Source of the DNA: Chloroflexota bacterium
GTDB lineage: Bacteria; Chloroflexota; Anaerolineae; UBA4142; SHND01
NCBI GenBank assembly: GCA_029778615.1
Contig: JAKOPZ010000119.1
Location: 1-37,823, forward strand
Reading direction: 5' to 3'
DNA: 37,823 nucleotides
Part shown: one piece after another, positions 2,517 through 22,505 of the stretch
How positions within the stretch are numbered: position 1 is the first letter of the stretch
Layout: the number at the start of each line of letters is the position of its first letter
The notes under the pieces: model-generated
Told to the model about the DNA's origin: nothing
Databases searched by the model: none
Seen by the model: only the letters and a program-made list of their open reading frames with translations
Made by a program: the position numbers and the translations under genes

Positions 2517-3350
2517 ATGCCAATCAAAGCATACAAACCCACGTCGCCCGGACGCCGCTGGCAAACCGTTTCGACGTTTGAAGAAATCACCAAAGGCAAG
2601 AAACCTGAAAAGAGTCTCTTGCAGCATAAAAAGAAATGGGCGGGACGCAACAACAAAGGTGAGTTGACGGTGCGTCATCGCGGCGGCGGCACATCCCCAA
2701 AATATCGCGTTATTGATTTTCGTCGCGAAAAAGTTGGGATTCCTGCCAAAGTGGCGTCCATCGAGTACGACCCGAATCGTACGGCGCGCATCGCGTTGCT
2801 GCATTACGCGGACGGCGAAAAGCGTTACATTCTTGCGCCGCTCGGCGTCGTCGTCGGAGATACGGTCATGTCCGGCGCCGAGGCGGAAATTAAACCGGGC
2901 AATACGGTGCCGATTAAAAATATTCCGCTGGGCACGGTGATTCACAACATCGAACTCGTCAAAGGCAAAGGCGGACAAATCGCGCGCAGCGCGGGCACGG
3001 GCGCGCAGCTGCTGGCGAAAGAAGGCAAATACGCGCAGGTGCGTATGCCGTCCGGTGAAGTGCGCTACATTTCGATGGAATGCTCTGCGACGATTGGACA
3101 AATCGGCAACATTGAACAGAGCACTATCAAAATCGGCAAAGCGGGACGCCGACGCCATATGGGTTGGCGCCCGAGCGTGCGCGGTGTGGCAATGACCCCG
3201 CGCGACCACCCACACGGCGGCGGCGAAGGTAAATCCGGTATCGGAATGCCCGGACCCAAAACGCGGTGGGGCAAACCGGCGCTCGGCTTTCGCACGCGCA
3301 ACAATTCACGGACGGACAAGTATATTGTGCGAAGACGTGGGAAAAAGTAA
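2517..3350 (+). CDS. rplB: 50S ribosomal protein L2 (uL2)
   Basis: A 277-residue protein essential for subunit joining and for the peptidyl-transferase centre. It starts [18 protein letters not shown], the expected opening. The C-terminal signature [21 protein letters not shown] (shortened: residues [12 protein letters not shown]) includes the conserved histidine close to the catalytic centre. A longer frame opens upstream at 2442, but that part is translated word repeat and hairpin and resembles no L2. The chosen ATG has no Shine-Dalgarno. L2 lies between L23 and S19, as in other S10 operons. Confidence 0.97.
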
Positions 3351-19523: not shown

Positions 19524-19571
19524 GGCGGATGTGATTTAGAATAAAGCAACGCAATGGAGAGGGAGTTACCA

Positions 19572-21182
19572 ATGGCAGCATCTAAAAAACCGAACGCAGG
19601 AAAAAAGAACAGCGCCAAGAAAACCACCGCGTCGCGCGCGCCACAAACAAACCAGACACTCAAAAAACCTACCGCGCGCAAAACGCGTTCCACGCGCGAT
19701 GCGCGCAAGAAAACGCAGCGCGGCGCAGCGGCAAAACCGAAGGCGGGCGCGCGACAGCGACGCGCGAAACAAATGGAAACCTTGCGCGAAATCACGCAGC
19801 CCGCGCCCGCAGATTTGCGTGAGGCACTGCGCCAAGAAGAAAAACCACCCGTCAGGGTGTCACCAACCCCACAACAAGAAATCGAAAAAATTCGCGAGTC
19901 GGCACAGCGGCTCGGCATCGAACTCGATGAAGATGAAGCGTTACAGTGGCTGACGCAAATGGCGGTGCAGGACAAGAGCGAAATTACCGTCGACGCGAAA
20001 AATTTCGTGTACGGCGCCAAAGTTGCCATCATGGACTTTTCGCCACAGGACCTGGAATATTTTCGCCGTATCGGCAAAATTGTCGCGATTCCCGACCAGC
20101 CCGGTGTCGTCGAGACGGCGCTCGCGTTGAGCGGCAGCGCGGCGCAAAGCAAAATTCAACGCAACCCCGGCGACGCGGACTTTTTTCAACGCGTCAACAT
20201 CAAAGCGCCGACCCGCGCAGACGCCATAAAAATTCTCGCCGACGCGATGCGCGCCAAAGGGCTGGAAACGATGCACGGCGCCGATTATCAATTGCTCTCG
20301 GTGAAATTTGGCACGCATCCCGAAGCGGTCACTCGCGATAGTTTGCCGCTCAAAGCCGGTTCGCCGATGACGTGGCGTCCGCGTGATTTGGTACGCGGCG
20401 AATTCGAGGTGCAGCGCGCGGATGGGACCAAGCAGACCGTCCGTTGGGAAGACGGCATGGCAGACCCCGGTTGGACGAAATTGGATTGGGTCGTGGCGGA
20501 CGTGCAGCGCGGACAGTTGGCGAACGCGAGCAATCTGCTCGACGTGACGTGGGAAGCGCCGACCGCCGAAATTGTGCCGCTGGACGGTTTCATTGACCCG
20601 TACTTTCAAGAAATTTATCTCGACGCCGCGTCGGTGCCGGTCTTTAGCAAACTCGTGCGCCAAGTGGACGAGAACGCGTTGGACAAGTATGTCACCGACC
20701 TCGAACATGAGGTGTACAAATATCTCGTCAAGCATGTGAACTATGGCAAGGTTGCCAAACGTTCTTACAATATCTTTCGCCTGACGAATCGTTTTCTCGA
20801 AGCGGCGTACATTCGCGAATTATTTGACGAACCGACGACCGCGCTGTATCGCGTATGGTCACTGTTCGAAACGTTAATGGGCGCGCAAACGGACGATTCG
20901 CAATTGGACCGCGTGGCGCTGCTCAAACAATATGACCAATTGATTCAACAGGTGGTGGAACACACCGAAGGCGAACGCGAAATTCGCATTGTGCGCGCGT
21001 TGATGCGCGCGCGTGACGAAGCGCTGGGCTTGCAGCCGGTGGTGGAATCGCTGGAACAACAATTCGAGGCGTCGCGCGAAGACGTGATGGAAATTTTGAA
21101 CGAGTACTTTCACGATTTGTTGTACGGCTTTCAACCCGTCGCGGAATTTTTGGAAGGGATTCGCGAGCGCAAGTACGATTAA
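19572..21182 (+). CDS. Unrecognised 536-residue protein with basic N-terminal tail
   Basis: I do not recognise this family. Residues 1-75 are a Lys/Arg/Ala/Thr-rich low-complexity tail (such as KKPNAGKKNSAKKTTASRAP), suggesting nucleic-acid contact. Residues 80-150 look helical and acidic. The core has FFQRVNIKAPTRADAIKILA, LSVKFGTHPEAV and GSPMTWRPRDLVRGEFEV, suggesting an alpha/beta domain, then conserved-looking blocks TKLDWVVADVQRGQLANAS, PLDGFIDPYFQEIYLDAAS and VPVFSKLVRQVD. The last 180 residues are mostly helical. No signal or membrane segment. The ATG at 19572 has gagggag 8 nt upstream; an ATG at 19554 would add MERELP. It is a single-gene unit between a terminator and the RIO-kinase leader. 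Confidence 0.85.
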   Translation: MAASKKPNAGKKNSAKKTTASRAPQTNQTLKKPTARKTRSTRDARKKTQRGAAAKPKAGARQRRAKQMETLREITQPAPADLREALRQEEKPPVRVSPTPQQEIEKIRESAQRLGIELDEDEALQWLTQMAVQDKSEITVDAKNFVYGAKVAIMDFSPQDLEYFRRIGKIVAIPDQPGVVETALALSGSAAQSKIQRNPGDADFFQRVNIKAPTRADAIKILADAMRAKGLETMHGADYQLLSVKFGTHPEAVTRDSLPLKAGSPMTWRPRDLVRGEFEVQRADGTKQTVRWEDGMADPGWTKLDWVVADVQRGQLANASNLLDVTWEAPTAEIVPLDGFIDPYFQEIYLDAASVPVFSKLVRQVDENALDKYVTDLEHEVYKYLVKHVNYGKVAKRSYNIFRLTNRFLEAAYIRELFDEPTTALYRVWSLFETLMGAQTDDSQLDRVALLKQYDQLIQQVVEHTEGEREIRIVRALMRARDEALGLQPVVESLEQQFEASREDVMEILNEYFHDLLYGFQPVAEFLEGIRERKYD

Positions 21183-21188
21183 ACGCGT

Positions 21189-21217
21189 TTGACATCCCGG
21201 ATGCTTTTTGATATAAA
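21189..21217 (+). promoter_or_regulatory. Promoter of the RIO-kinase leader
   Basis: TTGACA (21189-21194) and TATAAA (21212-21217) are separated by 17 bases, the ideal sigma-70-type spacing. Transcription would start near 21224, right at a perfect 8-bp hairpin CATTCGCA/TGCGAATG (21226-21247). Confidence 0.75.
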
Positions 21218-21281
21218 CCAAACCGCATTCGCAAAACCGTGCGAATGTGTTTTGACCAAATCGGTTAAAGGAGGCGCAGCG

Positions 21282-21341
21282 ATGCAATCTGAATATTTTG
21301 CTACAACGATGACCAATTGTTCGCGTGCGCCTGCCGACTGA
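21282..21341 (+). CDS. 19-codon leader ORF upstream of the RIO kinase
   Basis: ATG at 21282 to TGA at 21341 encodes MQSEYFATTMTNCSRAPAD. AAAGGAGG at 21267-21274 lies seven bases upstream, one of the best ribosome-binding sites in the window. A consensus-like promoter is about 60 nt upstream, and three hairpins follow, the last with a T8 tract. The peptide has no amino-acid bias that would suggest classical amino-acid attenuation. It is most likely a leader peptide or tiny independent gene. The evidence is context only. Confidence 0.5.
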   Translation: MQSEYFATTMTNCSRAPAD

Positions 21342-21343
21342 GC

Positions 21344-21379
21344 GTGCTTGCATAGCAAGCACAATTCCCCGTTGGAATT
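21344..21379 (+). promoter_or_regulatory. Two contiguous hairpins after the leader ORF
   Basis: GTGCTTGC-ata-GCAAGCAC (21344-21362) begins two bases after the leader-ORF stop. AATTCC-ccgtt-GGAATT (21363-21379) follows with no gap. Both are perfect stems. Confidence 0.65.
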
Positions 21380-21384
21380 CCTCA

Positions 21385-21418
21385 CCGTGGGCGCATTCAT
21401 GCGCTCACGGTTTTTTTT
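21385..21418 (+). terminator. Intrinsic terminator inside the RIO-kinase leader
   Basis: ccgtgggcgcat/atgcgctcacgg is a 12-bp stem with one mismatch around tc, followed by eight T (21411-21418). It lies between the leader ORF and the kinase gene on the same strand, so it either ends a small transcript or attenuates kinase expression. Confidence 0.85.
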
Positions 21419-21420
21419 GG

Positions 21421-21490
21421 AGCCGTGAGCTCGCTTGCAAGGCAAGCGTGGACTTGCGGCTTTTCTTTGCCGCGAGTGGAACATCGCGGC
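21421..21490 (+). promoter_or_regulatory. Mutually exclusive hairpins before the RIO kinase gene
   Basis: CGCTTGC-aag-GCAAGCG (21432-21448) has an outer stem AGCCG/CGGCT (21421-21425 with 21457-21461). ACTTGCGGC (21452-21460) can instead pair with GCCGCGAGT (21469-21477). GCCGCGA (21469-21475) can in turn pair with TCGCGGC (21484-21490). Neighbouring stems compete for the same bases, the layout of a switching RNA. With the promoter, leader ORF and terminator upstream this fills the 348-nt gap 21183-21530. Confidence 0.55.
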
Positions 21491-21530
21491 TCTTGTTTAC
21501 GAGTCCGCATTCAAACAAGGAAAACAAATC

Positions 21531-22505
21531 ATGCTCGACATGAATGCTGATTACGCTGAAAATCTGTACGACGATTCTTTCGACGCGGAATTTCTCGACG
21601 CTGCAACAGACGACCTGCCAAAACTGAAACGCAAATCGAAACGCTTCAAACATTCCTACGCCGAAGTTCTCGACGCGCCGGCGGACGCGCGCAATGACGA
21701 CCCCAACACATTCAACCCATCGTTCACCGGCTCCAAGCACGAGCGCCAATGGATTATCGAATACTTGGGTCTCTTTTACGACGACCACGTGATTACAGAT
21801 GTATTGCGTCCGGTGAAGGGGGGCAAGGAAGCGACCGTGTACTGCTGTCGCGCGAATCCCGCGTTGGGCGTGGAATTCATCGCGGCAAAAGTATATCGCC
21901 CGCGCATGTTCCGTCAGTTACGCCATGACGCCGTGTATCGCCAGGGGCGCGCGGTGATTGACGAAGAAGGCAAAGCGGCGCGCGGGCGCCGCGAAAAATT
22001 GGCGATGCAGAAAAAGACCGGGTTTGGACAAATTCTGCGGCACACCACGTGGCTCGCGAACGAGTATGAAACCTTAAAGAAATTGCACGCAGCGGGCGCC
22101 GATGTGCCCAAACCGTTCGCGAGCAGTGACAATGCAATTCTGATGGAATACGTGGGGGATGAAAAATTTCCCGCGCCCGCGCTCAATCATGTGCAGCTCG
22201 CGCCGCACGCCGCACACGCGCTGTTTGAGCGCTTGATGCACAATGTAGAACTGATGCTCGCGCAGGAACGCGTGCACGGCGACCTCTCGGCATACAATGT
22301 ATTGTATTGGAAGGGTCAAGTAAAAATCATTGACCTGCCGCAAGCGGTGAATCCGTACATGAATCCCGAAGCGTTTACGCTGTTTGCGCGTGACGTGGAG
22401 CGCTTGTGCGAATACTTTGCGCGCTATGGCGTCCGTTCCAATCCAATGCAAATCGCGCGCGAGATGTGGGAACAACACATTTTGCGCCGCGATACGCTGC
22501 GTTAA
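21531..22505 (+). CDS. RIO-type atypical protein kinase
   Basis: A 324-residue RIO1-like kinase/ATPase. The P-loop region VKGGKEATVYCC (about 95-106) and the ATP-binding Lys in AAKVYRPRMFRQL (K120) are present. The catalytic loop is VHGDLSAYNVLYW (D251, N256) and the metal motif is IIDLPQAV (D268). RIO1 proteins in archaea and eukaryotes act in small-subunit maturation; the bacterial role is unclear. The first 60 residues are acidic and then basic, with no homology I recognise. The ATG at 21531 has aagga 9 nt upstream and lies after a 300-nt structured leader. A longer in-frame extension (from 21435) would translate the leader hairpins and is rejected. Confidence 0.9.
   Translation: MLDMNADYAENLYDDSFDAEFLDAATDDLPKLKRKSKRFKHSYAEVLDAPADARNDDPNTFNPSFTGSKHERQWIIEYLGLFYDDHVITDVLRPVKGGKEATVYCCRANPALGVEFIAAKVYRPRMFRQLRHDAVYRQGRAVIDEEGKAARGRREKLAMQKKTGFGQILRHTTWLANEYETLKKLHAAGADVPKPFASSDNAILMEYVGDEKFPAPALNHVQLAPHAAHALFERLMHNVELMLAQERVHGDLSAYNVLYWKGQVKIIDLPQAVNPYMNPEAFTLFARDVERLCEYFARYGVRSNPMQIAREMWEQHILRRDTLR

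Follow-up and report, generated by a model that had tools for sequence, protein, structure and literature searches.

A RIO kinase gene behind a structured leader

The window, a contig of 37,823 nucleotides from a Chloroflexota bacterium, carries a gene for a RIO1-like protein kinase preceded by a structured leader (Table 1). The kinase also matches Rio1 crystal-structure sequences (E 7e-20), and it has the catalytic/metal motifs, with HGDLSxYN and IDLPQ intact. Rio1 and Rio2 act in small-subunit maturation in eukaryotes and archaea. For the bacterial RIO kinases, we found no paper on their role and none that links RIO kinases with attenuation, with Chloroflexi or with RsgA, and we found little on attenuators in the phylum Chloroflexota. 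Directly upstream of the leader, at 19554-21182, lies the gene for a 542-aa protein with no Pfam match, which is also found upstream of the kinase in the same-genus locus L054.

A first-pass annotation of this DNA, made from the letters alone, had listed a promoter, a 5' hairpin, a Shine-Dalgarno sequence (SD), a 19-codon upstream open reading frame (uORF), hairpins after its stop codon, a terminator with T8 and competing hairpins, and all of these are present where it placed them. An independent scan also recovers the terminator T1 and a hairpin at 21469-21490; it made no promoter call solely because it required a T at the last position of the -10 element. The annotation contained neither what we regard as the key pairing, among the SD, a complementary anti-SD stretch and the T1 5' arm, nor the multi-gene nature of the leader. 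The anti-SD core has two partners, one within the SD region (21272-21278, helix P1) and one in T1 (21389-21395, helix P2). Downstream of T1, strand-sharing hairpins occupy 21420-21490: the T2 5' arm CCGTGAGC (21423-21430) has its complement in the T1 3' arm GCTCACGG (21403-21410), and in the window the T3 5' arm GCCGCGAGT (21469-21477) has an alternative partner in ACTTGCGGC of T2 (21452-21460).

Table 1. Features of the leader and the kinase gene, in window coordinates
Feature	Position	Strand	Basis
Promoter, sigma-70-type, TTGACA-N17-TATAAA	21189-21217 (TTGACA 21189-21194; TATAAA 21212-21217)	+	Sequence
5' hairpin of the leader RNA, CATTCGC...GCGAATG	21226-21247	+	Sequence
SD AAAGGAGG	21267-21274	+	GGAGG core conserved
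Region 1, SD AAAGGAGG plus CGCAGCG, 5' strand of the putative anti-antiterminator helix P1	21267-21281	+	Covariation with anti-SD
uORF, ATG at 21282, 19 codons plus stop at 21339-21341 (MQSEYFATTMTNCSRAPAD)	21282-21341	+	Short SD-preceded ORF common among relatives
Region 2, anti-SD core TGCGCCT, 3' end of uORF	21326-21332	+	Own-locus pairings and covariation
Two spacer hairpins, uORF stop to T1	about 21341-21379	+	Sequence and folding
Intrinsic terminator T1 with T8	21384-21418 (hairpin 21384-21411; T8 21411-21418)	+	Independent scan and covariation
Region 3, T1 5' arm GGGCGCA, SD mimic	21389-21395	+	Sequence and covariation
T2, second terminator-like hairpin	21420-21468	+	Own-locus pairing with T1 3' arm; folding
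T3, third hairpin	21469-21499	+	Sequence, independent scan, folding
RIO1-like protein kinase, 324 aa, putative regulated gene	21531-22505	+	Pfam PF01163, E 8e-36

Conservation of the leader and uORF among RIO kinase loci

Homologues of the kinase are found in 142 of the 396 genomes of the class around the source genome, apparently the Anaerolineae of the Chloroflexota. DNA upstream of 119 homologous loci, together with the window, gave 120 RIO upstream regions, and a short SD-preceded uORF is present in 104 of them. A strict set of 70 loci from 16 families combines such a uORF with a terminator no more than 100 nt from the uORF stop; the uORFs of this set have a median length of 22 codons (16-30). 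The promoter TTGACA-N17-TATAAA is kept in the two nearest relatives, L054 and L055, and a promoter-like match of at least 9/12 lies upstream of the SD in 75% of 68 RIO leaders, compared with 12% of shuffles. The 5' hairpin has a 9-pair equivalent in the same-genus L054, with none seen in L055, and the first spacer hairpin is present in L054 with altered arms. A further proposal of the first-pass annotation, that CTTGC/GCAAG arms on either side of the terminator pair with each other, did not survive the comparison: L054 has TGTTCCC/GGGAGCA at the hairpin and no such arms in the T2 region. The RIO leader of L055 contains a separate ACCCTAAGGGT hairpin between T1 and T2.

When the leader DNA was searched directly against 60 relatives, the only strong match was in the same genus, a yield that we attribute to an element conserved in pairing rather than in sequence. 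The uORF peptides of the RIO leaders, which were listed and tallied, share little except what RNA pairing dictates. Among them we found no conserved peptide, no run of regulatory codons, no residue conserved beyond those dictated by the anti-SD and no drug-specific motif. The anti-SD core falls in uORF frame 0, 1 or 2 in 38, 12 and 18 loci, respectively.

A related family, f2, uses a layout other than the T1 leader. Its loci L056-L062 keep an (A)AGGAGG uORF at a distance of about 150-280 nt before the kinase gene. At several f2 loci, T1 gives way to a hairpin of the GCACGGTG...CCGTGC type immediately ahead of the kinase start, and in some of them the uORF stop lies within the 5' arm of this hairpin, a layout that is perhaps a translational version of the switch. 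Genes for an ABC-2 permease and a TetA(P)-like MFS protein lie ahead of the f2 kinase gene, which is often followed by a GNAT-like gene (by resemblance to scanned proteins), and two f2 operons have a leader-like match at the operon head. A gene resembling those of TetA(P)-like MFS exporters adjoins the RIO kinase gene upstream in L056, L057, L058, L060 and L062 and downstream in L055, which suggests that bacterial RIO kinases are functionally connected with drug efflux.

Covariation of three alternative helices

The first strand of P1 begins with the AGG of the SD, ends immediately ahead of the start codon and pairs with a stretch near the uORF end; P2 pairs this same stretch with the 5' arm and loop of T1. 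Both helices are stronger within loci than between families. An SD pairs with its own uORF at -16.0 kcal/mol and with uORFs of other families at -13.3 kcal/mol (z -10.8; 0 of 2000 permutations); for P2, the corresponding values are -19.2 and -15.8 kcal/mol (z -11.0; 0 of 2000). The permutation nulls were drawn across the 16 families and do not fully remove relatedness. Controls that paired the SD with T1 or with the reversed uORF were near zero, and the largest control value, for the reversed uORF with T1, was z -2.0. In 94% of loci, the overlap of the P1 and P2 sites exceeds 0.5; the figure is still 79% when T1 arms of other families are substituted, which leaves the strength of own-locus pairing as the informative measure.

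In an alignment of 46 RIO leaders, double-change cells numbered 41 for P1, 48 for P2 and 66 for T1, each level reached in 0 of 500 shuffles, and slid registers of all three helices were far worse paired. Within the T1 alignment, 94% of cells are paired, and 8 of 9 pairs show changes on both sides. The structure of the covariance model R1, trained on these 46 leaders, includes P1 and T1 and does not include P2. On 41 aligned leaders outside the model definition, matched by R1 only, P2 was nonetheless 87.7% paired with 28 double changes (0 of 500 shuffles). Covariation of P1, P2 and T1 is thereby observed, for P2 in two sets of leaders, and this conservation and covariation in relatives place the leader layout far beyond chance. 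Judging by its strands, P2 overlaps T1 and should be mutually exclusive with it. In 23 two-terminator loci, pairing of the T1 3' arm with the T2 5' arm of the same locus also exceeded permutations (z -4.6), so tandem hairpins may act as a chain in which each terminator is disarmed by a strand freed from the one before; in the window, the T2 3' strand (21452-21460) and the T3 5' arm (21469-21477) would extend this chain.

The first-pass annotation had offered a translation-coupled attenuator among its readings, and that reading is strongly supported by a uORF, an SD, a terminator and two alternative helices that are conserved and covary across 16 families. The checks it had proposed, a covariance model from homologous leaders and a search for conservation of the uORF and SD, both came out positive, with the peptide itself not conserved.

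Ribosome position and predicted folding

The 3' end of the anti-SD lies a median of 14 nt before the end of the uORF stop codon. A terminating ribosome should cover the anti-SD, and a ribosome on the start codon should cover the SD and leave the anti-SD free. When the 70 leaders of the strict set were folded with ribosome footprints blocked, the mean probability of T1 was 0.92 with no ribosome, 0.65 with the start codon masked and 0.94 with the stop codon masked. The drop at the start nearly disappeared when the uORF was exchanged for that of another family (0.85) or shuffled (0.88). The model thus predicts that, on average, readthrough is favoured by a ribosome on the start codon only, with a clear drop of T1 at equilibrium in only about half of the 70 leaders. 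P1, which pairs the SD itself, would act as an anti-antiterminator that can be broken by a ribosome.

In the short form of the window leader, T1 beats P2 at equilibrium despite a ribosome at the start (probability of T1 0.96), and the switch would therefore need either the order of co-transcriptional folding or the T2 step. When T2 and T3 are included and the start is masked, the minimum-energy fold of the window leader shifts from P1 plus T1 to P2 plus the T1 3':T2 5' pairing.

Spread of the leader and the genes behind it

At E<=0.1, model R1 detects the leader in 193 of the 396 genomes of the class; repeated matches within one genome are frequent, and genomes without the kinase are among those matched. 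In a sample of 301 genomes of the phylum searched at E<=0.001, only 3 marginal matches fall outside the class (E 1e-5 to 4e-4), and the leader is nearly confined to the class. A full-length match at E<=1e-5 is present in 68 of the 120 RIO upstream regions, including the window and the 46 training leaders, whereas about 40% of these regions fall short of this threshold. No Rfam family, riboswitches and r-protein leaders included, matches the leader at gathering or relaxed thresholds; the relaxed search gave only sub-threshold miRNA and sRNA matches, mostly at a hairpin of L055. In that locus, at about 3020-3096, a strong long inverted repeat draws weak, spurious Rfam miRNA matches.

Sixty R1 matches, none of them at a main RIO gene, were examined for the first recognised gene behind the leader. 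These genes belong to few classes, with a GNAT acetyltransferase in 22 loci, an ABC exporter in 17, the ribosome-assembly GTPase RsgA in 12 and an ABC-2/DrrA-like protein in 3, and the remainder comprised one MFS protein, one second RIO kinase, one M24 peptidase, one aspartyl-tRNA synthetase and two unclassified genes. The GNAT genes often form tandem arrays, the ABC exporters are MsbA/BmrCD-like with several followed by a second exporter gene, and the RsgA loci are accompanied by RNHCP-domain proteins or TetA(P)-like MFS exporters. The leader before the aspartyl-tRNA synthetase gene (L271:2493-2645) is unusual among the exporters and acetyltransferases.

Several arrangements join these genes to the kinase. 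A single leader precedes a GNAT gene and then a RIO kinase gene in L252, and in one genome (G339), a leader-RsgA-RIO operon has the kinase directly after RsgA. RIO kinase and RsgA co-occur, with RsgA present in 117 of the 142 genomes that have a RIO kinase (odds ratio 3.0, p 6e-6, uncorrected for phylogeny), so the two are not mutual alternatives; in the source genome, no protein passes the Pfam cut-off for RsgA. That genome does carry a second copy of the leader (G000:C135:34996-35175; L203:197-376), which precedes at least three tandem GNAT genes. With a broader model, R2, run on 19 near genomes including the source genome, the RIO and GNAT-array leaders are the only two convincing members in the latter. 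Leaders with GNAT arrays also occur in the same-genus genomes G001, G002 and G004 and in family f29, and G005 has a leader match. We regard the leader as a well-supported family of regulatory RNA, missing from Rfam and distributed like a regulon.

Proposed mechanism and alternative explanations

Quite probably, the leader acts as a ribosome-mediated transcription attenuator with the logic of vmlR and bmrB, and the RIO kinase belongs to the translation-stress regulon under its control. The geometry would be of the trp/vmlR type, with 1:2, 2:3 and 3:4 pairings among the uORF SD (1), the anti-SD (2) and the arms of T1 (3 and 4). When no ribosome is present, the SD would pair with the anti-SD, T1 would form and transcription would stop after about 195 nt; under normal translation, the ribosome finishing the uORF would mask the anti-SD, and T1 would again form. 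A ribosome arrested at the start or first codons would instead cover the SD and leave the anti-SD free to capture the T1 5' arm. The freed T1 3' arm could then take the T2 5' arm and T2 could take T3, allowing RNA polymerase to read into the kinase gene. The important pairings are accordingly those of SD with anti-SD, anti-SD with T1 5' arm, T1 3' arm with T2 5' arm and T2 3' arm with T3 5' arm.

Because region 1 is the ribosome binding site, initiation and early elongation would be sensed, and the signal may be general early translation arrest (ribosome-targeting inhibitors or failing initiation) rather than the lack of one amino acid. Each operon would carry its own copy of the switch, in a regulon of RIO kinase, ABC exporters, GNATs, RsgA and TetA(P)-like MFS exporters. 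The genes behind the leader, from which alone the antibiotic link is drawn, suggest that the switch responds to ribosome-targeting inhibitors or to translation arrest, and the presence of the same switch before exporters, acetyltransferases and RsgA ties the RIO kinase to the translation-stress response. We infer the polarity of the switch, its inducer, a terminated transcript in vivo and its regulation, and the terminator chain, as well as a part for the kinase in ribosome maturation or in the response to drugs.

The same three-way switch could respond not to antibiotics but to a shortage of ribosomes, to starvation, to cold or to faulty maturation of the small subunit, which we judge possible but distinctly less likely. 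Two ribosome-linked factors, RIO kinase and RsgA, and once an aspartyl-tRNA synthetase stand under the leader, and the uORF peptide has no drug-specific motif, as such a signal would allow; most members, however, are exporters, GNATs and TetA(P)-like MFS proteins, the usual antibiotic-response set. A still more tentative variant holds that the leader senses ribosomes or small subunits parked at the start codon without elongating. RsgA and the RIO kinase, acting on the 30S subunit, would then be maturation or rescue factors switched on together with drug exporters.

The other readings are very improbable. A separate tiny gene, encoding a 19-aa protein or a short RNA unrelated to the kinase, would explain why promoter, SD, ORF and terminator make up a complete short transcription unit, and the first-pass annotation had raised it; yet the RNA pairings covary while the peptides differ, the frame of the anti-SD shifts among families, both of which speak against a small-protein gene, and the leader recurs before several unrelated operons that share one functional theme. 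Binding of a protein, as in r-protein-like autoregulation by the kinase, or of a small molecule would suit a structured 5' region before a possibly ribosome-related gene, but no conserved aptamer-like core was seen, one leader type stands before many unrelated genes, and the uORF and SD are conserved; the riboswitch-like element of the annotation, like any known RNA, also lacks a matching Rfam family. Least probable of all is an amino-acid attenuator, in which stalling at specific uORF codons reports a missing amino acid: the 1:2, 2:3, 3:4 geometry is that of trp-type leaders, but the uORFs offer neither regulatory codons nor conserved residues of their own, and the downstream genes are not biosynthetic.

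As a translation-stress attenuator, the leader gives the bacterial RIO kinases a testable context in translation arrest and in an operon shared with RsgA. The combination of SD, anti-SD and an SD-mimicking terminator is a clean design by which ribosome arrest could be sensed with no peptide code. If the more tentative variant with parked ribosomes or small subunits is true, bacterial RIO kinases would belong to a ribosome-repair response, in likeness to Rio1 and Rio2, under one RNA family copied before many operons.

Comparison with known systems

In attenuators of the trp-operon type, the fold among 1:2, 2:3 and 3:4 pairings is chosen by ribosome position. The present leader differs in having no regulatory codons and in using the ribosome binding site as region 1. 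Translation-stress regulons of the WhiB7/WblC type in Actinobacteria contain efflux pumps, GNATs and ribosome-linked factors and are driven by one attenuated transcription factor. The gene content found here is similar, whereas the operons each appear to carry their own RNA switch.

The closest parallels are in Bacillus subtilis. Experiments on the vmlR leader, which forms anti-antiterminator, antiterminator and terminator structures, show that stalling of a uORF ribosome prevents the anti-antiterminator (PMC9226507). The disruption of an anti-antiterminator by a stalled uORF ribosome and the resulting antiterminator are predicted here as well, and vmlR likewise tolerates variant uORF peptides and controls a translation-linked resistance gene (PMC9226507). 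The vmlR uORF has 3 codons and its SD lies outside the anti-antiterminator hairpin (PMC9226507), whereas in the present leader, from a different phylum, the SD would itself be a strand of that helix, the anti-SD lies inside a uORF of ~16-30 codons and tandem terminators may chain. In the bmrB-bmrCD leader, ribosome-mediated transcription attenuation controls a heterodimeric multidrug ABC exporter, again with a predicted terminator, antiterminator and anti-antiterminator (PMC4191407). Its terminator lies within the bmrB coding region (PMC4191407), whereas T1 of the present leader follows the uORF stop at a distance of 20-99 nt. The present leader also differs in its helices, which covary throughout a class, and in its occurrence before many types of gene. 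By analogy with these two systems, we conclude that the leader probably works as vmlR and bmrB-bmrCD do.
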